Translations under genes and position numbers: made by a program | Assembly: GCA_902800925.1 (NCBI GenBank) | Contig: CADCGD010000022.1 | Coordinates: forward strand, 1-34,105 | Source of the DNA: an uncultured Bacteroidales bacterium | GTDB lineage: Bacteria; Bacteroidota; Bacteroidia; Bacteroidales; Bacteroidaceae | Direction: 5' to 3' | DNA length: 34,105 nt | The notes under the pieces: generated by a model | Seen by the model: the letters and a program-made list of their open reading frames with translations, nothing else | Told to the model about the DNA's origin: nothing | Database searches by the model: none | Shown: one piece after another, positions 7,169 through 32,544 of the stretch | How positions within the stretch are numbered: position 1 is the first letter of the stretch | Layout of the letters: every line of letters starts with the position of its first letter

Positions 7169-7196
7169 AATAGATAGTTTTAGATGAAATGTTTTG

Positions 7197-7228
7197 CAAA
7201 AATACAAAAAATAGTAGCTTGATGCAAG
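7197..7228 (-). promoter_or_regulatory. Promoter of ndk
   Basis: Minus-strand -7 TATTTTTG (7197-7204) and a CTTG -33 element (7225-7228), spacer 20 nt. Divergent from the transporter promoter at 7267. Confidence 0.75.
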
Positions 7229-7266
7229 TGTTTTGCAGATTATTTTCACAGTTGCGGAAAAAGTTG

Positions 7267-7274
7267 TACCTTTG
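7267..7274 (+). promoter_or_regulatory. -7 box of the intact EamA transporter gene
   Basis: TACCTTTG, 22 nt before ATG 7297. The surrounding sequence AAAAAGTTGTA.CTTTGC is nearly the same as upstream of the broken paralogue, so the duplication included the promoter. The -33 element is unclear. Confidence 0.7.
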
Positions 7275-7296
7275 CGCCCGCAAACAAAACAGGACT

Positions 7297-8217
7297 ATGA
7301 CTTATTTAGGTGAACTGATATCGATAGGCGTCGCTTTTTCATGGACGGCGACGGCGCTACTGAGCGAGTTTGGCTCGAAGCGGCTGGGCAACTTGACGCT
7401 GAATGTATTGCGAATGGCGCTGGCACTGGTGTTCTCGCTGGTGTTGTTTCTGGTGGTAACAGGAGAGCCGTTACCCACAGGCGTATCGACAGAGGCAGCC
7501 GGATGGATGCTGTTATCCGGACTGGTGGGCTATGTCATTGGCGACTTCTGCCTCTTTCAATGCTATATTATTATAGGTTCGCGCTATGGCCAGCTTTTCA
7601 TGACGTTGGCTCCGCTGTCGGCAGCCCTGATGGCCTGGGTGACGTTGGGGCAGCAGATGACGGCGATGAGCATCATAGCGATGCTGGTAACGCTCGCTGG
7701 AATCAGTATTTCCGTACTTGGACGAGGCGAGCATCATAAGGTGTCCTTGAAATTGCCCCTCAATGGTGTTCTCTTTGCCATTGGAGCGGCTGTGTGTCAG
7801 GGTGTTGGTCTGGTGCTGAGCAAGATAGGTATGGACCATTACGAAGTGTCTGCTGCGATGCCTGACTGGCTGGTGCCCTTCAGCGCCAATTTCTACCGTT
7901 GTATTGCTGGCATCGTCGGCTTTTCGCTATTGCTCTATTTTCGCGATGGAATGGCCACTTTACGCGAGGCTATGCACGACAGAAAAGGACTCACCGTTGC
8001 TACTGCCACCACCATCTTTGGTCCCTTCGTGGGTGTTGGTTTTTCGCTGATGGCTGTGCAATATACGGCAGCAGGCATTGCCTCCACACTGATGGCTATG
8101 ACGCCCATCATCATCCTTCTGCCTTCCTATTGGCTCTTCCATGAGAAGATAACCTGGAAAGCTATTATTGGCGCCTTCATCTCTGTCGTTGGCGTCAGCC
8201 TGTTCTTTTTAGGATGA
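7297..8217 (+). CDS. EamA/DMT-family transporter (intact copy)
   Basis: 306 residues, about ten transmembrane helices arranged as two EamA repeats (ELISIGVAFSWTATALLSEF..., and VGFSLMAVQYTAAGIASTLMAMTP in the second half). It is an inner-membrane exporter of small metabolites or a drug; the substrate is not predictable. An in-frame ATG-like extension begins at 7189 but would run through the promoter; ATG 7297 gives MTYLGELISIG, matching the paralogue. The gene converges on the beta-helix gene with only 3 nt between stops. The frameshifted copy at 722-1647 is its closest relative here. Confidence 0.9.
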   Translation: MTYLGELISIGVAFSWTATALLSEFGSKRLGNLTLNVLRMALALVFSLVLFLVVTGEPLPTGVSTEAAGWMLLSGLVGYVIGDFCLFQCYIIIGSRYGQLFMTLAPLSAALMAWVTLGQQMTAMSIIAMLVTLAGISISVLGRGEHHKVSLKLPLNGVLFAIGAAVCQGVGLVLSKIGMDHYEVSAAMPDWLVPFSANFYRCIAGIVGFSLLLYFRDGMATLREAMHDRKGLTVATATTIFGPFVGVGFSLMAVQYTAAGIASTLMAMTPIIILLPSYWLFHEKITWKAIIGAFISVVGVSLFFLG

Positions 8218-8220
8218 AGG

Positions 8221-10503
8221 CTACCACGTTGCTTTCAGATAGTGAAGCATCGTTGTGCTTTCGCCACACGAGCCCGTATGCTGGATATGGATGCCGCCAA
8301 AGGGATTGGCATCGACATGAGCCTGTAGATCTACCTGATGAGGAAGGGTCGAGTCGGTAGGCTTGGGCGTCTTGGTCTCGACATGAGCCGTGAGTAGACC
8401 ATTGGCGTAGTTGAGACTGATGGTGCAGCCTGTGCGATAGCAGGTGGAGGAGATGGGTTCTGTCAGGGGGGTAACGACTCCGTTTTTATATGCTACTAAA
8501 TAGAAATCGACAGCTTTGGCATGCTTCACAGTGCGGATAATTCGGAGCCCGTAGCCAGTAAGCGTCTGCGTATCGAACTTCAGACAGATGTCCATATACT
8601 GCCCAGTGGCCGAGCCGAAGCCCTGTCCGGCGGTCTTGGTAGGATCGACTTGCAGCGTCAGCGACATGTCGTCATAGTCGCGTTCAATGGGTGTGTACAT
8701 CAGTCGGGCACCTCTCTGGGCCTGCAAAAGTCCCTTTCCAACGGCTCCGTTGAAGCCCTCGCCATACTCCCACATGCGCTTCTGTGGGTCAAACTTCCAG
8801 TCGTATTCCGATGTGTCGAGCGGCTTGTATCCGTCCACTTGCCAGGTGTCTGGCAGCAAAGAGAGACTCCAGCCTGTCCAGAAGTCGCTGAAGTCGGTTT
8901 CGTATGTCCTCGTGTCTTCGATGTCTTTGAAACGGATGGGCTGGCTGACAGTCTCTACCATATTGCCCAACTCGCTGCGATGATGGGCAGGACGTATGGT
9001 CGCCATCAGTCTTCGGCCTATATCGCCAGGCCGTAGGCGATAGTGAGTCGTTGGTCCGTCGTTGCTACAGGCAAGAATCGTCTCTTTGTGGCAGTCGTCA
9101 GTGTCTAGTCGACTCCAAATGATGTGTGATTCGTCACGTCGGCCTTGCAGGTCGAGTTCGTAGTCGAGCCAAGCCACACCTTTCTTTATTTTAATACGAG
9201 GTTCTTTCTTGAATGAGGGCGGAGGCAGCTGGGAAGGCTTTATCGTTACCATGCATACGGCTACGGCAGGATAGTCGTCAATGGTATAGGCCGTAACAGG
9301 GATGGTGACAGGTTCTTCAATATCGTCGCATGCTATGCTGATGCTGGTGGAGTTTCCCTTCATGTTGCTCAGCGTGACAATTTGGTCGTAAGGTGGTTGG
9401 ATTCGCCAAGCCACCTCACGCCCATCGGCTTTGACAGAAAGAGCGACAGGTTCGCCGCCCACCTGTATCTCTGCTTCCCGACGGCTGATGGAGAGATAGG
9501 GTGGCTCGGTCATATTCATCGCTATGGAGTCCATCACGACGGTGTTTTCCTGTTGGCGGTTACCAATGAGATAGGGTTTTCCGTTGAGCGTGAAGTTCTT
9601 CTGATAGCAGCGGAGCCAGCGTTGCGGATAGGCCGTCCAGCCGATATATAAGCTATCGGAGGGAGCATGATAGCGGCAGTCGACCACCGTCACAGGGCCC
9701 CCCTGCTTGCAGAAGTATATCTCGCGATTGTCGCTCTTCACGTTGAAGTCGCAATCTATGAACATCGCCCCACGTTCGAAAGTGCTCCAGAAAGGCTTCT
9801 GTCCGTAGAGGTCGAAGTCGCAGTGGCGATAGAGAGCCGTGCCGTTCAGAGCGTCGTCAGTACACTCAAAGTGGCAGCTGTCGTAGACGCTCTCTCTGGC
9901 ACCGTTCAGCGGGTTCAGGTTCAGTCGGCTTATAAAACGCACTTTTTTGGCATGAAGGCTACGTCCGTGAACATAGCCAACATGTGCCTGAGTGATGGCA
10001 TTATTGCGTTTCTTCCGGCTGAGTTCTGGGCGACGGGGATAGTCCAGGTCTACATTACAGTAGTTGCCCAGCGTCATATTCTCTACCCTCAACTCGTCAA
10101 CGTGCATGTCGAACATCGTGAAGTTGCCGATAGCCCCTTGCGTCTGTCCGCGCTGAGCAGCGAGCACCACATCCTCTGGTCGCTCGGCTAGTCCGATGAA
10201 GTCAAGTTTCTTGGCACGAATAACGATGCCAAATGGCTCTCGCCCGTTTTCACCTTTGACCACTTCCGGCTCATCGGGATTGTCCACCCAATACACCCAC
10301 GGACGGATGTAGAGTGTGGTAGTGTCGCTGAGGTGGGCGACGGCCTCGCGGAAGTCATTGAAAACAAAGGGCTTGGCCTGTGCTTCGTCATGAGTGAGCG
10401 AGCCGTCGAGCAACAGGTGGTGTTCGTCGAGCGTAGGAATGGTTTGAGCCGCTGTTTCCATCACGGCAGCCATGAGCGCAATAGTTAATATCAGTTTATT
10501 CAT
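8221..10503 (-). CDS. Large secreted protein with right-handed beta-helix (pectinesterase-like) N-terminal part
   Basis: 760 residues with a signal peptide (MNKLILTIALMAAVMETAAQ). Residues about 40-340 look like a parallel beta-helix of the pectin-lyase/pectinesterase type: IRAKKLDFIGLAERPEDVVL, repeated short N- and D-rich turns, and CHFECTDDALNGTALYRHCDFDLYG. Residues 350-530 look like Ig-like beta domains (PVALSVKADGREVAW, PVTAYTIDDYPAVAV). Residues 540-760 resemble a LamG/concanavalin-like module ending in WSLSLLPDTWQVDG...LHYLKATW. It is probably a periplasmic or surface carbohydrate-active protein; the substrate is unknown. It has its own promoter and is not in a SusCD locus. Confidence 0.75.
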   Translation of the reverse strand: MNKLILTIALMAAVMETAAQTIPTLDEHHLLLDGSLTHDEAQAKPFVFNDFREAVAHLSDTTTLYIRPWVYWVDNPDEPEVVKGENGREPFGIVIRAKKLDFIGLAERPEDVVLAAQRGQTQGAIGNFTMFDMHVDELRVENMTLGNYCNVDLDYPRRPELSRKKRNNAITQAHVGYVHGRSLHAKKVRFISRLNLNPLNGARESVYDSCHFECTDDALNGTALYRHCDFDLYGQKPFWSTFERGAMFIDCDFNVKSDNREIYFCKQGGPVTVVDCRYHAPSDSLYIGWTAYPQRWLRCYQKNFTLNGKPYLIGNRQQENTVVMDSIAMNMTEPPYLSISRREAEIQVGGEPVALSVKADGREVAWRIQPPYDQIVTLSNMKGNSTSISIACDDIEEPVTIPVTAYTIDDYPAVAVCMVTIKPSQLPPPSFKKEPRIKIKKGVAWLDYELDLQGRRDESHIIWSRLDTDDCHKETILACSNDGPTTHYRLRPGDIGRRLMATIRPAHHRSELGNMVETVSQPIRFKDIEDTRTYETDFSDFWTGWSLSLLPDTWQVDGYKPLDTSEYDWKFDPQKRMWEYGEGFNGAVGKGLLQAQRGARLMYTPIERDYDDMSLTLQVDPTKTAGQGFGSATGQYMDICLKFDTQTLTGYGLRIIRTVKHAKAVDFYLVAYKNGVVTPLTEPISSTCYRTGCTISLNYANGLLTAHVETKTPKPTDSTLPHQVDLQAHVDANPFGGIHIQHTGSCGESTTMLHYLKATW

Positions 10504-23253: not shown

Positions 23254-24792
23254 CTAATTTTCTATTATTATCCAATGCCCATGGCTTGCAGAACCCTCTC
23301 TATCAAGGAGTCTGATGCTTTTTAGTTTATTAACATGCTTTTGAACTGCAGTCACAGAGACACCTACTTTCTTGGCAATATCGCCTCTCGTCATATAGTT
23401 ATCAGCATATATCATCTTAAATATGGTTGCAGCTGTTTCAGACAACCCTTTAGATAACTCTTTAGATAACCTTATAGATAACCTTTCAGGCAACTCTATG
23501 GATAACTCATTAGGCAACCCAACATTACTTGACTTAGGTGATGGGACTGGCAATATCAGTTCAACTTCATCAACATCCAGTTTGTTCAACAGCTGTGGCT
23601 CGCCCCAATTGGTTTCTTTCCATGCTGCAATGATTTTGGGGAATCCAGAGCCGACATTCTCACCAAAGCCAATCATACGGAGCATATTCTGTATCTTTGG
23701 ATTACGAGCCTTTGAATTACCACCTCGATAGATGGTCTCTACAGGCAGCTTCAACAGTCCAGGATTACGGAAGCATAGACGGTCATCATGCTTCTCTATT
23801 CTCAGAATGCCAGCATCCATCATCAGGTCGCAGTGGATTATGGCATTGGTAAAGGCTTCACGTACTGCCTCATGCTGTGGTGTGTCGTCATTCCTTTTCC
23901 CTCCCTTTTCCAATTTGAACGGTCTTGGCAAGTCGAACTGCACCTTTGGCGAAACGATGCGGAAGAACTGGTAAAGGTTGTTCTCCCAAAGTCCGTCGTA
24001 TGTCAGGCGATCATGATAACGTTCGTCACCCACCAGATGGCTCATATCCAGATAGTCCATGCGAAAGTTAGAAAAACGGTCTCTGATGGCGAGTCCCTTT
24101 CCAAACATCATCAGTCCGGCCAGCGTCAATCCCTCTCTGCCTGTCTGTCTGTCCTCAGTATAGCCACCAAGATTTCTGAGGAAAGTCTTATCGTCAACTC
24201 TATTCCATACATGGGTACTGTTCTCCTGTCTGAACTCTGTACGATACTGACGCAAAGAATCAGGATCAATATCATCCATACCATAGTATTCTATCAGGAT
24301 GCTATCGTTGCCGTCAGCGTTAGAGTCACGTATCATGGCTTTCACCTGAGCCTCTGTGCAATGATAGTCCCCTTCGTTGTTGCGCCTATATGTACCTTTA
24401 TATACATTGCCATTCAGATAGATGGGTTTTGCTCTCCAGTCAGCCTGAGGGACATGGATACAAACAATCTGTACCCCATCCAAATTCACCACTTCCACAT
24501 CACTATCAACGAGAATGTTCTCATTCACCTTGTCGCTGTTGAGGGTGTTCCAGAAGTCCGTGATAATCTTCATCGGCTCATCCACACCAACTATCTGGTA
24601 ACGCTTTTTGATGTCCTTCTCCTGTATGTCTTCATTCACACCAAGCAGAATCAGTCCGCCAATCGTATTGGCGAAAGCCGAATAGGTCGCCCAAACCGAC
24701 TTCGGTACCTCTGCCTTAGCCCGTTTACACTCCAGCGTCACTCGTTCGCCTTTTAGCAATGTCTCTCTTATTGTTTTTTCGTTAATATTCAT
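23254..24792 (-). CDS. Schlafen/AlbA_2 domain protein with GHKL-type domain and C-terminal winged helix
   Basis: 512 residues. Residues about 10-150: AlbA_2/Schlafen-AAA_4 nucleic-acid-binding domain (TLECKRAKAEVPKSVWATYSA, NTIGGLILLGVNE, GNVYKGTYRRNNEGDYHCTE). Residues about 280-400: HATPase_c_4-like domain (HEAVREAFTNAIIHCDL, GFGENVGSGFPKI). Residues 428-452: a tetrapeptide repeat of the form xxLS. Residues 453-512: a winged helix-turn-helix (MTRGDIAKKVGVSVTAVQKHVNKL). Family members are annotated as putative transcriptional regulators or ATP-dependent DNA helicase-like proteins and are enriched in mobile and defence DNA; real activity is unknown. Start ATG 24792; 27 nt after the DUF2971 gene. 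Confidence 0.88.
   Translation of the reverse strand: MNINEKTIRETLLKGERVTLECKRAKAEVPKSVWATYSAFANTIGGLILLGVNEDIQEKDIKKRYQIVGVDEPMKIITDFWNTLNSDKVNENILVDSDVEVVNLDGVQIVCIHVPQADWRAKPIYLNGNVYKGTYRRNNEGDYHCTEAQVKAMIRDSNADGNDSILIEYYGMDDIDPDSLRQYRTEFRQENSTHVWNRVDDKTFLRNLGGYTEDRQTGREGLTLAGLMMFGKGLAIRDRFSNFRMDYLDMSHLVGDERYHDRLTYDGLWENNLYQFFRIVSPKVQFDLPRPFKLEKGGKRNDDTPQHEAVREAFTNAIIHCDLMMDAGILRIEKHDDRLCFRNPGLLKLPVETIYRGGNSKARNPKIQNMLRMIGFGENVGSGFPKIIAAWKETNWGEPQLLNKLDVDEVELILPVPSPKSSNVGLPNELSIELPERLSIRLSKELSKGLSETAATIFKMIYADNYMTRGDIAKKVGVSVTAVQKHVNKLKSIRLLDREGSASHGHWIIIEN
23437..23511 (-). repeat. 12-nt periodic repeat encoding an xxLS linker
   Basis: About six degenerate 12-nt units inside the AlbA_2 gene encode NELS IELP ERLS IRLS KELS KGLS. 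On the plus strand they read as variants of GATAACxxTTTA. It joins the GHKL-type domain to the winged helix. Such slippage-prone tracts change linker length between strains. Confidence 0.75.
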
Positions 24793-24819: not shown

Positions 24820-25902
24820 TCAAACTTCTTCAATATCCAAAGCATAACTTTTACTGCTATAGTTTATTCTGACATTATATTCTTTCAACTCTCTGTTGAT
24901 AGCTATCTCATGTAGCTCTTCTCTATCACTCCATGATATTTCTGGACCATAATAAATTGCTTTCAGTTTGTCAAAATCTACAATGTTAGCATACTTATTA
25001 TTCCAATTTCCCCATTTACAAATCAATCTCCATTCTTTTTCCCTACTATACTCAGTCGATTTATATAGGTATGGGCGGCACAAGTCCAGCAAATCAATAT
25101 CGTGAAGAATTGGCTTCAGACTTTCAATTCCTGTTGCCATAAATCGGTCTATGATAAATGATTCTATGCGGTAATTGGAAAGGTCATAACGCTCATCAGA
25201 ATAAAAAACTGGTAACAAGGCCGAGTGCTTTGTTTCATTAGGTAAAGCTAACAACGAAAACATAAGCGAAATACCACTAAAATCATATTCCAATGCATAT
25301 CCTTTATAGCCATCAGCATACATATCCCACATAAATTTAGATCTTACATCCTCGGTAAAGCATGCAATCTGAGTAGTATTGTCATCTCTTAAGAAATCCA
25401 TACTATTACGCAATGTTGTAATAATTCTATCCTTAATGGGGCTGTTCGCAATAGTCCTTCTTAATTTCCAAACAGCATCCTCCGCAGAGGTTTCTCTTAT
25501 CTTTTGATTATCACGAAGCATTAAGGCCTTCAGAATATCTGGTAAACTATCTGGATAAGCACCATTCGCCACCATAGATTGAAAATCTTGAATAGTATCT
25601 TTGTTTATCAGTTTTATTATAAGATCCCAAACTCTATTCTCATCAAAATAGCAGAGGGCGTCATACTTATCAGAAAAGCATGAAGCAGAGCAAGTGGCAA
25701 TAGTTTTACTTTTGAGCGAATCAATCATATAGTCCTTACCCTTTTCATCCCTCTTTACTTTTCTGAAGCGATAGAGTTTAGAAGGTAGTATAGTATCCAG
25801 ATTATTATTAATAGTGCCCCACCTCTTGGCGATTTCGTCAAAAGGTAAATCTGCGGGGATACATTGGCTTTCAAAGAATGCCTCAAACTCTTCTTTTGTC
25901 AT
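24820..25902 (-). CDS. DUF2971 family protein
   Basis: 360 residues matching DUF2971: LPSKLYRFRKV near the N-terminus, SASCFSDKYDAL (in place of the usual SxxxFNDPFD), QIACFTEDVRSKFMWDMYADGYKGYALEYDF, LPVFYSDERYDL, and EYSREKEWRLICKWG followed by AIYYGPEIS. The family is widespread in accessory DNA and may bind or modify a nucleotide-type ligand, but no activity is established. No membrane segment. Runs 27 nt ahead of the AlbA_2 gene, so these two are likely co-expressed; about 218 AT-rich nt separate it from the HNH gene, with only a weak possible -7 box (TAAATTTG, 26036-26043, minus). Confidence 0.8.
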   Translation of the reverse strand: MTKEEFEAFFESQCIPADLPFDEIAKRWGTINNNLDTILPSKLYRFRKVKRDEKGKDYMIDSLKSKTIATCSASCFSDKYDALCYFDENRVWDLIIKLINKDTIQDFQSMVANGAYPDSLPDILKALMLRDNQKIRETSAEDAVWKLRRTIANSPIKDRIITTLRNSMDFLRDDNTTQIACFTEDVRSKFMWDMYADGYKGYALEYDFSGISLMFSLLALPNETKHSALLPVFYSDERYDLSNYRIESFIIDRFMATGIESLKPILHDIDLLDLCRPYLYKSTEYSREKEWRLICKWGNWNNKYANIVDFDKLKAIYYGPEISWSDREELHEIAINRELKEYNVRINYSSKSYALDIEEV

Positions 25903-27052: not shown

Positions 27053-27926
27053 TTAAAGGGCAGTAGCTGACTTAATACTATCTTTTTGGAATTTATCTCT
27101 TTCAATAGCCTTATCTGCTTTCACAACATCATCAATAAAATTATTAGCTTTGGTATTATTAATAATGTCCCGAAATTGAATGGTAATCATATATTTGAAA
27201 GGCAAATCTTTGTCAAATACCCTTTCATCCATTTCAATTTCTTCCAAATATATTCCAATTGTTTTATTATCTGCCTCCCAATATGCGAGGCGCCCCATGA
27301 CGATAACTTTTTGTCCATTAATGGTTCTACCAAAATTATTGCATAGAAGTAAATCTTTTTCTGTGCACTTCCCGAATTTCTGCTCAAAAAGCATGATTAA
27401 ATGGTTTGCCTTTTCTGATATTACGTTTCCATTTTTCCCATACTTATAAAAGGAATTCCAGCTTATTGAATATAATCTGTTTTGATAAAACTTAGTCCAA
27501 TTGTTATATTTAAATTCTTCCATATAACGCATGAAAGGTTCACATCCAGGAGTATAGCCATTATGGGTAAGACTTAATATAGTTTTTACGTAAACTTTCA
27601 ATATCAACGAAATTGTCCATTGACTGGAAGTGATATCCGTCAAAAACAAATCCCGAACCATTCTTGTCTTTTAACGATTTCTCAAACTTACTAATAGCCA
27701 AATGCGCTTGAACTTGAGTCATCCCATAGCGGACTGTACCAAAAATCGTATCACCTAATGCGGCAAATATTCGTTCTCGTTCTATTGAGTCTTGCTGACG
27801 AACAAGATTAATTTGAGCCAAAGAATCATTGATCTTTTGACTGTCATTATCTACTTTGTACCCACCTCGATTCTTACATGAGAATACTGATGCTAATACT
27901 ATAATTGAAAATATGATACGTCTCAT
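27053..27926 (-). pseudogene. Lipoprotein gene split by a frameshift
   Basis: Two overlapping frames appear to be one gene. The first (27926 to 27561) has a lipoprotein signal (MRRIIFSIIVLASVFSCKN, lipobox FSC), then GDTIFGTVRYGMTQVQAHLA, and stops at TAA 27561-27563 after NYIKSYP. The second frame runs to 27053 and carries the natural continuation (FYQNRLYSISWNSFYKYG, VMGRLAYWEADNKTIGIYLEE), a pattern expected after the first part. Its own N-terminal 30 residues merely retranslate the first part out of frame. A one-base change near 27563-27570 (GGG tract) would rejoin them. The alternative is two real overlapping genes, which I find less likely. Confidence 0.6.
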
Positions 27927-27955: not shown

Positions 27956-28351
27956 TTATAAACCATGAAGGATGTTAAGAGGATTATTCTTTGCTTTGTA
28001 TATTTCGTTTTCATTTTTATCAAAGACTCCTTTTAATTTGCAGTGAGGACATTCGAATTGTCCGTTGGTTGTTCTCATCTGAATTAGTTTTTCCTCATTA
28101 TCCCAACAATGAGTGCAATAAATGGCATCGTTATCTCCTTCTAATGTAAGGTATAACTCTGGATGTCGTTGTATTCTTTCTTTATTTTTTAGTTTCTTTT
28201 CTATTCTTTCGATTTCTTCGTGTAAATGATTAATCGTGTTCTGCTGATCTAAAGCTTGTTCGCTTAGATTAGTTAACTGACGGTATAGTTCTATATTGTC
28301 TGATTGTTGAACAATCTTAGCCACGTCTTTAATATTTTCAACTAATCCCAT
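27956..28351 (-). CDS. Coiled-coil zinc-ribbon protein
   Basis: 131 residues: an N-terminal helical, coiled-coil part (about 10-60, LHEEIERIEKKLKNKERI) and a C-terminal zinc ribbon with YCTHC (Cys79, Cys82) and ECPHC (Cys101, Cys104). No signal peptide or membrane helix. Small proteins of this build are common beside mobile and defence genes in Bacteroidetes but have no assigned role; it may be an adaptor for a neighbour. It lies 19 nt after the membrane protein gene and 29 nt before the lipoprotein gene. Confidence 0.75.
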   Translation of the reverse strand: MGLVENIKDVAKIVQQSDNIELYRQLTNLSEQALDQQNTINHLHEEIERIEKKLKNKERIQRHPELYLTLEGDNDAIYCTHCWDNEEKLIQMRTTNGQFECPHCKLKGVFDKNENEIYKAKNNPLNILHGL

Positions 28352-29565: not shown

Positions 29566-31443
29566 TTATCTTAGAGAATTCAAAAGATTTTCAAGACTTA
29601 TTTCATCCATAATTAACACGTCACGAGGCTTACTACCATTGCAGCGCCCAACAATACCAGCCTTTTCCAGCTGGTCCATTAATCTGCCTGCTCGATTATA
29701 GCCAATTGCAAACTTTCTTTGAATCAGACTCGTTGAGCCTTCTTGGGTCAAGACTATTAAACGTGCAGCATCTTCAAACAATGAATCTAAATGAGTCATA
29801 TCAACATCGCTTGACTCGCCATATTCATTTTCATCAAAATATGGGTCTGACAATTCAAATGGACTTATATAGCCTTGCTGTTCAGAAATGAATTTGCAAA
29901 TACGTTCGGTCTCTGGTGTATCCACAAAAGCGCATTGGACTCTTATACAATCAATGCTTTTGCCAACTCTAAACAACATATCACCATTCCCTAACAACTC
30001 TTCTGCTCCATCACAATCAAGAATGACTTGAGAATCTATACGCTCTGGCAGCCTAAAAGCGATACGTGTTGGGAAATTAGTCTTGATTGCTCCTGTGATA
30101 ATATCATTGGTAGGTCGTTTCGTTGAAATGATCATGTGAATACCAACTGCACGAGCATATTGAGCCAATTGAACTATTGGTGTCTCGAAATCTTGCCCTT
30201 TCTCTTCAATAAAGTCTCCGTACTCATCAATAACGACAACAATATAAGGCATGAATCTGTGCCCAACAGCAGGATTTAACTGACGATTTATAAATTTGCT
30301 GTTATATTCTTGGACGTTTCTAACACATGCCATTTTCAGCAAATCATAACGAACTTCCATCTCCTTGCACAAGCTGTTCAATGTGCAAATGGCCTGACCA
30401 CTATTTGATACTATAACAGGTTCGTCAGGCAATGAAGCAAGGAATTGTTTGGCAATCTGAGCATACATCCCAAACTCAACTCCATAAGGATCCATGAGTA
30501 CAAATTTTAATTCTGCTGGATGTTTCTTATAGAGTAAAGATATAATCATTGCATTTAGCGCTATTGATTTGCCCTGACCTGTTGAGCCTGCAATAAGAAT
30601 GTGAGGTGCTTTGGTTAGGTCAAACATAAAAACCTCATTGGTGATGGTTTTGCCTATCGCACAAGGAAGTTCCATCGTTGTTTCTTGGAATTGTTTTGTG
30701 TTTAGAATACTTTCCAAAGGAACAACAGAGGGACGTATATTGGGCACTTCTATACCGATGGTACCTTTACCAGGTATAGGAATTAGAATCTGAACATTAT
30801 GAGAACTCAATGCCAGAGCTATATCATCTTCTAATCCTCTCAATTTAGATGCATTCACACCAGGAGCAAGTGTTATCTCATATAGTGTAACTCTTGGCCC
30901 AACACTCGCTTTAATAGTAGACACAACAACTCCAAAGTTCCACAGAACATCAACAATTCTATTCTTATTAGCTTGTTGTTCTTCGATGTCAATGTGTGAT
31001 GTATTGTCATACTTCCTCAGTAAATCAAAGGTTGGATAGTGATAGTTCTCCAAGTCCTTTTTGGGGTCGTATGGAATTGAGAGATCACCATAGACAATGT
31101 CATTATGATTATCTTCTCGATTAATAGGTGTATGGTGTGTGTACTGCTGAGAACCTACAGGACCTTCATATTGTAGTTCTTCTTTGCTGACAGTAGGAGT
31201 AACTTCTTTTTCTCTATAATTTTGCGTTTCTTGTTGTATTCCTGTTGAACTATGTTTAGAGCTATCGACTTTATCTCTTCTATACAATCCAGTTCCCGGG
31301 ATACCTGTATTTACATATGTCCCATTAGGACCTACTGATACATTTGCACCTTTTGGACCAATATTTACCCCTAAACCACTTTTACTAATATTAATGTAAA
31401 AGCCGGGAAATATCTTTATGCGTTTTCTAAATCTCCATCCCAT
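29566..31443 (-). CDS. Soluble FtsK/SpoIIIE-type DNA translocase with N-terminal DUF4236
   Basis: 625 residues. Residues 1-55 are DUF4236: GWRFRKRIKIFPGFYINIS, then Gly/Pro-rich turns SGLGVNIGPKGANVSVGP and NTGIPGTGLYRR. Residues about 125-480 are a full FtsK motor: alpha part (FDLLRKYD to LEDDIALAL), Walker A AGSTGQGKS (285-293), Walker B VVVIDEYGDF (402-411), STKRPTNDIITGAIK (440-454) and GAEELLGNGDMLF. Residues about 558-600 are the gamma winged helix that reads DNA (LTQEGSTSLIQRKFAIGYNRAGRLMDQLEKAGIVG). There are no membrane helices, unlike chromosomal FtsK. It should pump dsDNA in a hexamer; the cargo is unknown. Five nt after the HTH pseudogene. Confidence 0.92.
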   Translation of the reverse strand: MGWRFRKRIKIFPGFYINISKSGLGVNIGPKGANVSVGPNGTYVNTGIPGTGLYRRDKVDSSKHSSTGIQQETQNYREKEVTPTVSKEELQYEGPVGSQQYTHHTPINREDNHNDIVYGDLSIPYDPKKDLENYHYPTFDLLRKYDNTSHIDIEEQQANKNRIVDVLWNFGVVVSTIKASVGPRVTLYEITLAPGVNASKLRGLEDDIALALSSHNVQILIPIPGKGTIGIEVPNIRPSVVPLESILNTKQFQETTMELPCAIGKTITNEVFMFDLTKAPHILIAGSTGQGKSIALNAMIISLLYKKHPAELKFVLMDPYGVEFGMYAQIAKQFLASLPDEPVIVSNSGQAICTLNSLCKEMEVRYDLLKMACVRNVQEYNSKFINRQLNPAVGHRFMPYIVVVIDEYGDFIEEKGQDFETPIVQLAQYARAVGIHMIISTKRPTNDIITGAIKTNFPTRIAFRLPERIDSQVILDCDGAEELLGNGDMLFRVGKSIDCIRVQCAFVDTPETERICKFISEQQGYISPFELSDPYFDENEYGESSDVDMTHLDSLFEDAARLIVLTQEGSTSLIQRKFAIGYNRAGRLMDQLEKAGIVGRCNGSKPRDVLIMDEISLENLLNSLR

Positions 31444-31448
31444 AAAAC

Positions 31449-31708
31449 CTAACTATTACTAACAGACTCCATAAACTTCTTATTGAACAATTCCTCCACG
31501 CCAACATTCAATAGTTTTGAGATCCTTGCTAAAGTCTCAATATCTGGCTGAGAAGAATTGGTACACCATTTGGAAATAGTGGATGGACTCACTCCAAGTT
31601 CCTCGGATAGCCATTTACTGGGGTACCCTCCACGATATTATCAACATCGTGGATTCCTCCCTTCTTTTGTTCCACTAGCACTAATTTTAGGCGATTTACG
31701 TCTTGCAT
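31449..31708 (-). pseudogene. XRE-type helix-turn-helix regulator interrupted by a palindromic insertion
   Basis: The start ATG 31708 gives MQDVNRLKLVLVEQKK. After a 41-nt interruption the second frame continues KWLSEELGVSPSTISKWCTN and SQPDIETLARISKLL to TAG 31449. Without the interruption it would be an ordinary XRE/Cro-type repressor of about 70 residues. The extra 41 nt are not a multiple of three and end translation at a TGA. The gene sits 5 nt before the FtsK start, the usual position for the regulator of such a cluster. No exact TAnnTTTG promoter was found upstream. Confidence 0.8.
31621..31661. mobile_element. Small palindromic insertion in the HTH gene
   Basis: About 41 nt between the AAGAAG and AGTAAATGG parts of the regulator gene. 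It contains a perfect 8-bp inverted repeat TCCACGAT (31629-31636)/ATCGTGGA (31646-31653) and a GGGTACCC palindrome at one end. Limits were inferred by comparing with the expected XRE reading frame. It could be a miniature palindromic element or a local inversion/duplication product. Confidence 0.5.
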
Positions 31709-31805
31709 ACATTTCAAATTTTTAGTTTGGGTGTAAAGTTAGTGAAAAAACTTCAATCAAAATAATATTTGCTTGTTTTTTAGTGTTTATTAAGCCTAAT
31801 AAAGT

Positions 31806-32512: not shown

Positions 32513-32544
32513 TTTGGTTATTACAATAAGTTTATTTATATTTG
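32513..32544 (+). promoter_or_regulatory. Promoter of the DUF4143-type ATPase gene
   Basis: -33 TTTG (32513-32516) and -7 TATATTTG (32537-32544), spacer 20 nt. The upstream TTG 'start' at 32542 lies inside this box, so translation starts at ATG 32563. Confidence 0.85.

Follow-up and report, generated by a model that had tools for sequence, protein, structure and literature searches.

The DUF4236-FtsK proteins are paralogues of FtsK, the textbook housekeeping machine, and what is unusual about them is that motor and DNA reader have separate histories. The protein studied here is encoded in a stretch of 34,105 nucleotides from an uncultured Bacteroidales bacterium (contig CADCGD010000022.1), called the window below. 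As far as sequence comparison goes, the motors of these paralogues have a single origin and changed catalytic residues, the gamma winged helix pairs with the host's own FtsK in sister lineages, the gene has moved between species, and it is paired with an XRE-type regulator. The paralogue is probably a conditional modulator or antagonist of the resident FtsK. In the full account, to which we give a probability of about 0.42, a horizontally moving FtsK paralogue would engage the chromosomal sites of the resident FtsK and modulate or block the action of FtsK and Xer, in defence or growth arrest.

The lineage amounts to a natural experiment, in which the engine has drifted while the DNA-reading end keeps to the resident copy or is overwritten by it. 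Gamma, as the part that must match the host, is thereby set apart from the motor, which may diverge freely or under selection.

The window protein and its relatives

The gene and its domains are arranged as follows:

29566..31443, minus strand: DUF4236-FtsK paralogue, 625 residues (exact open reading frame, Pfam, motor tree)
31276..31437, minus strand: DUF4236 domain, residues 3-56 (Pfam, 2e-21; predicted all-beta)
31036..31275, minus strand: polar linker, residues 57-136, where some relatives have membrane segments (gaps between Pfam matches, hydropathy, relatives)
30739..31035, minus strand: FtsK alpha domain, residues 137-235 (Pfam FtsK_alpha, 2e-26)
30112..30717, minus strand: FtsK motor domain match, residues 243-444 (Pfam FtsK_SpoIIIE, 1e-42)
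29611..29790, minus strand: FtsK gamma winged helix, residues 552-611 (Pfam FtsK_gamma, 2e-26)

The DUF4236, alpha, motor and gamma matches are all above the Pfam cut-offs. The Walker A motif AGSTGQGKS (residues 285-293), the Walker B motif VVVIDE (residues 402-407) and gamma are intact, and on this point the open reading frame, Pfam and the reading of individual residues agree with the first-pass annotation. Mean hydropathy over 19 residues peaks at 1.48 for the protein as a whole and at 0.77 for residues 1-136. No stretch exceeds the cut of 1.8 set for membrane helices, showing that the N-terminal membrane domain of FtsK is absent; the resident FtsK has 30 segments above the same cut. Pfam and hydropathy also bear out the earlier statement that residues 1-120 hold DUF4236 and a polar linker and no membrane helices. 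A soluble FtsK-type protein, distinct from the cell's FtsK, is thereby supported.

The window genome has one other FtsK (G000:C24, L045), with the usual membrane domain and 66% identity over residues 91-623, and the window protein is therefore a paralogue and not the cell's FtsK. It is an additional, patchy copy. The two proteins are collinear in alpha, motor and gamma, with 66-68% identity, and are identical in gamma residues 575-599. In contrast to the resident FtsK, the paralogue has DUF4236 and no membrane domain, carries changes at the phosphosensor glutamine and the DPK lysine, sits behind an XRE gene, and is patchy and transferred.

DUF4236 was found in 23 of 399 genomes sampled from the family group of the window and in 33 of 398 sampled from its genus. 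An FtsK motor follows DUF4236 at 10 of the 30 genus loci that are readable out of 33, placing DUF4236-FtsK in at least 10 of the 398 genomes. A scan of a genome collection (84,980 species) with a DUF4236 alignment gave 220 confirmed stretches, of which the best 80 loci were kept. Among these best 80, the search for the DUF4236-FtsK architecture yielded 17 further loci, together with 10 at which DUF4236 and FtsK gamma occur without the motor. By their record titles the 17 are from Bacteroidales, Bacteroidaceae, Prevotellaceae or Prevotella MAGs, several of them from rumen or omasum samples; the only isolate is Segatella albensis DSM 11370 (L054). Frames are open at 15 of these 17 loci; L046 is broken and L049 is cut by a contig end. 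The broken copy, in genome G399 (L046, 8001-9823), is interrupted before gamma into 525 + 80 residues, which might be an assembly error. No description of DUF4236-FtsK under that name was found in the titles and abstract beginnings searched for DUF4236 and for FtsK paralogues or defence; DUF4236 itself is named in a passage of PMC8049487.

The window protein and its nearest relatives have a polar linker alone between DUF4236 and alpha. In L058 this place is taken by a genuine FtsK membrane domain, 40-43% identical to that of housekeeping FtsK (best E 1e-48), and L058 is the only one of 17 paralogues that matches FtsK N-termini below E 0.001. Another membrane segment is common to L054, L055 and L057, with L061 distantly alike, and hydrophobic stretches number two in L059, L060 and L069 and three in L056. 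By this comparison the family prefixes DUF4236 to the motor, and the stretch in between is exchangeable. The claim that DUF4236 has replaced the membrane domain thus holds for the window protein, with its polar linker, but not for the family, in view of the membrane segments in L058, L054, L055, L057 and L061.

The motor and the gamma domain

L049 was left out of residue counts, trees, gamma ranking, third-codon-position and dN/dS comparisons. H_L190_G401, which is 47% identical to the query FtsK and whose genome may be mixed, was kept in the residue counts, motor tree, gamma ranking and third-position comparison and dropped from the split-region trees, which also exclude D_L046, D_L052 and H_L179 (gamma broken or incomplete). 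L178 (G407) was left out of the residue counts, motor tree and gamma ranking and included in the third-position comparison and the split-region trees.

In the motor tree the 17 DUF4236-FtsKs (window included) form one clade apart from 19 housekeeping FtsKs, with support 100/100. Residues 175-513 alone also place the paralogues in one clade (100/99; 15 paralogues against 18 housekeeping). This single motor clade rules out independent fusions from each host's ftsK.

Catalytic positions were mapped onto Pseudomonas aeruginosa FtsK, with the roles of Glu596, the Thr630/Gln631 phosphosensor, Arg632 and Arg620 taken from passages of PMC9410874; these assign no role to the DPK lysine, which is position 500 of that protein by count. 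The FtsKs of E. coli and P. aeruginosa have the usual residues at the catalytic positions in the alignments. The phosphosensor glutamine (Gln631) is kept in one of 17 paralogues and the DPK lysine in none (it is arginine in three), as against 19 of 19 housekeeping FtsKs in each case. The Walker B catalytic glutamate (Glu596) is kept in 11 of 17 paralogues, window included, and again in 19 of 19 housekeeping proteins. The Walker A lysine is present in all 17 paralogues, the arginine finger (Arg620) in 16 and the loop II arginine (Arg632) in 16. The window protein itself keeps the Walker B Glu407, the arginine finger Arg431 and the loop II arginine; it lacks the complete FtsK catalytic set in that Lys442 takes the place of the phosphosensor glutamine, the other members of the set being kept. 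With Tyr320 in the place of the DPK lysine as well, the motor is not fully canonical.

In PMC9410874, a simulation study, the phosphosensor is proposed to link the catalytic glutamate with the grip on DNA. If so, the paralogues most likely differ from FtsK in how hydrolysis is coupled to grip. The change of these coupling residues makes the "DNA pump" of the first-pass annotation doubtful. The window protein may still hydrolyse ATP and pump, as Walker A, Walker B and the arginine finger are kept.

The history of gamma is separate. In the tree of residues 520-624 a single paralogue clade is rejected (p-AU 5e-24; 15 paralogues and 18 housekeeping FtsKs, with long branches in play). The tree joins the gammas of L053, L059, L060 and L069 (starred support) and of L056 (96/76) to the FtsKs of their respective genomes. 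Outside the XRE-bearing group five of six lineages could be tested for gamma, and all five pair in this way. The other ten paralogue rows fall together with the FtsKs from the window genome, from G399 and from G406, at 93/93 (not starred).

Third codon positions in G411 are 94% identical to those of the resident ftsK in residues 137-174 and 52-62% in gamma. The gamma values are 55-70% in G414 and G415, 37-62% in G413 and 40-60% in G412, against a background of 29-40% with the FtsKs of other genomes, so that they are raised most clearly in G411, G414 and G415. The motor windows of G411 and G413-G415 give 17-47%, against a background of 28-35%. This rise outside the motor fits gene conversion from the resident ftsK at both gene ends, sparing the motor, in the sister lineages. 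Such conversion may follow from sequence likeness alone, gamma being the most conserved part.

Gamma of the window protein is different. All 25 of its residues 575-599, the recognition segment, equal those of the resident FtsK, yet third-position identity there is 36%. Third positions of the window gene give 29-37%, with no sign of recent conversion, ruling out a recent copy of the cell's own ftsK. Being identical in residues without recent conversion, the match has most likely been kept by selection. At the XRE-bearing loci generally, third positions are near background, and gamma has not been recently copied from the resident FtsK. When 19 FtsKs are ranked by gamma, the own FtsK is best in eight of 14 pairs, window included, and ranks 4, 4, 4, 5, 15 (L054) and 18 (G401, where the resident gene is doubtful) in the other six. 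In the pairs window-L048 and L047-L051, dS is 1.0-1.2 in gamma versus 0.1-0.5 elsewhere; by these values gamma is a mosaic of its own within the relatives of the window. In a DNA search of 249 genus genomes with the window gamma, the best match outside the window (86%) was in G516, whose DUF4236-FtsK gene lies on the same contig and strand.

FtsK gamma acts together with XerD. PDB entry 5dcf is a fusion entry of FtsK gamma with XerD, and gamma of FtsK reads KOPS according to PMC2680272. By keeping the gamma of its host, a paralogue would most likely act where the host's FtsK acts. The first-pass annotation had a pump recruited to a different structure by DUF4236; gamma indicates the host chromosome or the resident FtsK as the target.

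The main rival, which we hold to be possible at a lower level of belief, is a soluble DNA translocase, still active but with altered ATP coupling, that assists FtsK in clearing or repairing the chromosome. SftA of Bacillus subtilis is a soluble FtsK paralogue beside a membrane-bound one, an arrangement that the window paralogue shares; SftA is not known to have DUF4236. An active enzyme would agree with the Walker A, Walker B, arginine finger, loop II arginine and gamma kept in the window, with the match of gamma to the resident and with purifying selection. It agrees less well with a gene that is present in few genomes of the genus and moves between species, and with the loss of the Walker B glutamate in six and of the phosphosensor glutamine in 16 of 17 paralogues.

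The regulator, the neighbouring genes and transfer

The paralogue belongs to an island between 22453 and an AAA_14 gene at 32542, with neighbours that vary between species. Its other genes are:

31452..31717, minus strand: XRE-type regulator gene directly upstream of the paralogue, broken by a frame shift; intact copies in relatives
31622..31656, minus strand: core of the 38-base hairpin insertion that breaks the XRE gene; found again at G000:C47 and, in closely similar form, in L055
28371..29543, minus strand: 390-residue protein, hydrophobic around residues 9 and 183, without a Pfam family above cut-off
27956..28351, minus strand: 131-residue protein, without a Pfam family above cut-off; in L046 a homologue comes directly after the paralogue, on its downstream side
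27053..27926, minus strand: variable cargo, two overlapping frames (27561-27926 and 27053-27661) related to one 286-residue gene of L047
26121..27041, minus strand: HNH_5 protein, variable cargo (Pfam HNH_5, 1e-8)
24820..25902, minus strand: DUF2971 protein (Pfam), matching the PADLOC candidate PDC-S31
23254..24792, minus strand: protein with AlbA_2, HATPase_c_4 and a winged helix (Pfam)

An XRE-type gene lies directly upstream at 12 of the 18 DUF4236-FtsK loci, window included. Ten of these make up the clade of the window (window, L046, L047, L048, L050, L051, L055, L057, L058 and L061); L049 is too short for the tree, and L054 branches outside with weak support. The six paralogues without an XRE gene form one clade (100/98), and two of them, L052 and L053, adjoin ftsK, with ordinary genes around them. 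The XRE gene is broken in L055 by an insertion at the same place as in the window and is shortened in L047. The hairpin insertion was rejected as a common repeat, its pattern occurring twice in the window genome and in none of 59 other relatives searched, with a pattern too strict for the L055 variant. The second occurrence is in a second XRE copy (L205, 4643-11455; G000:C47), with the same insertion at the same place. That copy heads PDC-S57-type, TIR-like, type III methylase and type III nuclease genes; the product of the PDC-S57-type gene looks like a T5orf172/GIY-YIG protein.

The XRE family of the window is present in 20 of 40 relatives searched, the window's genome included. Of 28 XRE-relative loci read, 27 have a downstream gene; 20 of these genes were scanned and seven left out. 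Sixteen of the 20 match PADLOC at 1e-8, including type I, II and IIG restriction-modification, DndC, SspB, AbiL-like and SoFic genes, some matches being generic, such as a helicase matching DpdF. The four without a match are at L206 (the closest XRE relative outside the window's genome among the 40 relatives), L208, L218 and L221. In a small control, none of ten window genes outside the island matched PADLOC. By these matches the paralogue often occupies the place used by restriction and defence genes.

No such regularity is seen downstream. A tabulation of neighbours gave no conserved set, only the XRE gene recurring in position; a conserved neighbour set is ruled out by HNH, DUF2971 and AlbA_2 genes that come and go. 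AlbA_2-type genes lie near the paralogue at seven of 18 loci, window included, and an 84% identical homologue of the 390-residue protein lies directly downstream of the paralogue in L204. Neighbours at other loci encode leucine-rich repeat, NOV_C/sacsin-like, DUF4062, RhuM, TonB-dependent receptor, thioredoxin, GTPase and plain metabolic proteins. The HNH nuclease that had been read as part of a cluster is there, as the fourth gene downstream when the split pair is counted as one, but it is not a conserved neighbour. Judged by gene order, the XRE regulator, where present, is the constant partner of the paralogue, and the HNH nuclease is not. The split pair at 27053-27926 looks frame-shifted, its L047 counterpart being one continuous gene.

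The defence-type slot and regulator lend themselves to the next rival, somewhat less probable than an active translocase and on balance doubtful, in which an XRE-controlled single gene takes hold of phage or plasmid DNA or expels it, with or without the help of variable nucleases. The cargo, with its HNH, DUF2971, AlbA_2, NOV_C/sacsin-like and DUF4062 proteins, would suit such a role, and the PADLOC models SspH and mad8 (MADS), which describe HerA defence motors, match the motor. These matches are of the generic FtsK/HerA kind, however, and do not reach DUF4236 or gamma, and no Ssp, MADS or HerA partner set was found among ten island proteins scanned (paralogue included). A weak mad1 match (E 0.018) in the PADLOC scan falls on a winged helix of the AlbA_2 protein. 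There is no constant nuclease partner, and other neighbours (leucine-rich repeat, TonB-dependent receptor, thioredoxin and GTPase genes) are not defence-like. A gamma that stays like the chromosome-reading gamma of the host would be needless for foreign DNA.

A variable island and an FtsK/HerA-type motor could also denote the coupling protein of an integrative conjugative element, which is very improbable. Conjugative coupling proteins are co-encoded with relaxase and type IV secretion genes. Pfam found no conjugation, relaxase, integrase or phage structural genes among the 20 window proteins scanned, and no relaxase, integrase or mating-pair genes occur in the open reading frame lists read, all within a contig of 34 kb. 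The protein is thus not evidently the coupling protein of a known element, the finding by which the first-pass annotation would have been overturned. Moreover, its closest relative is FtsK with a gamma domain, and the NCBIfam plasmid TraB model scores 38 bits against a cut-off of 800.

Over DUF4236 there is no difference between the paralogues of the window and G399, and in the linker hardly any (dS 0); in alpha and motor dS is 0.26-0.28. The resident FtsKs of the same two genomes have dS 0.8-1.0 in alpha, motor and gamma. Since the former values are far below the latter, the paralogue has, by this measure, been transferred or recently exchanged between species. In the pairs window-L048 and L047-L051, dN/dS lies between 0.05 and 0.28 for DUF4236, alpha, motor and gamma and reaches 0.51 in the linker, compared with 0.00-0.07 in alpha, motor and gamma of housekeeping ftsK pairs, so that the paralogue is constrained, but less than the housekeeping gene. 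The L052-L053 motor gives 0.56, on very few changes.

A decaying, functionless duplicate, in which conversion and the loss of catalytic residues are neutral, is improbable. It would account for the weaker constraint, the lost catalytic residues, the broken XRE regulator of the window and the interrupted paralogue of G399. It is opposed by the low dN/dS outside the linker in the two pairs, by the open frames at most other loci, and by a single origin with long survival.

Mode of action and other DUF4236 proteins

The paralogue has retained its motor fold, Walker A for ATP binding, the arginine finger and a host-matched gamma presumed to read DNA and XerD. What it has lost are residues with a presumed role in coupling ATP hydrolysis to the grip on DNA. 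The end that anchors FtsK to the divisome is replaced by DUF4236 and an exchangeable linker or membrane module. By itself or in rings shared with FtsK, the paralogue would engage the chromosomal sites of the resident FtsK, and once the XRE-controlled operon is switched on, FtsK and Xer action would be modulated or blocked. The purpose would most likely be a growth-arrest or defence response. Regulation or sabotage of chromosome segregation by pseudo-motors, whether by bacteria or by their mobile genes, would become directly testable, and the orphan domain DUF4236 gains a partner and a testable setting.

A sharper version, which we regard as unlikely, makes the paralogue a switchable poison subunit. 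Made in response to a trigger, the XRE-controlled look-alike would read the same chromosomal sites through its host-matched gamma, enter or cap FtsK rings and, owing to its rewired ATP-DNA coupling, jam both dif recombination and the translocation of the chromosome, bringing division of an infected cell to a halt. The minimal form would be represented by sister proteins with no more than DUF4236, a membrane hairpin and gamma.

Such motorless proteins (L093, L118 and L126) share the N-terminal DUF4236 and the gamma winged helix with the paralogue but lack the FtsK motor and have hydrophobic stretches between the domains. For gamma of the L093 protein (8001-9257) the nearest relative is the FtsK encoded in the same genome (79%), which does not hold for L118. 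CbxX-type AAA proteins with DUF4236 (L030, 9880-12993; L080, 317-2554; L111, 5206-8202; L068, 8001-11279) likewise have DUF4236 and gamma as in the paralogue, but hydrophobic stretches between the domains, and their gamma occurs without an FtsK motor. The position of DUF4236 ahead of unlike partners suggests an adaptor.

AlphaFold2 predicts DUF4236 to be a six-stranded, all-beta fold (mean pLDDT 83), and the predicted fold has no significant match to solved structures. At E 0.001 it is present in 36 phage records out of 50,697 and in 2,719 plasmid records out of 72,556. On an Enterobacter plasmid (L234, 5001-6224) the gene of a 407-residue DUF4236 protein is flanked by terW and an aldolase-like gene, in a cluster of the tellurium-resistance type. 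Elsewhere in the window, two very similar transporter-like genes (722-1603 and 7189-8217) lie about 6 kb apart, the first of which looks damaged at its N-terminus in translation.
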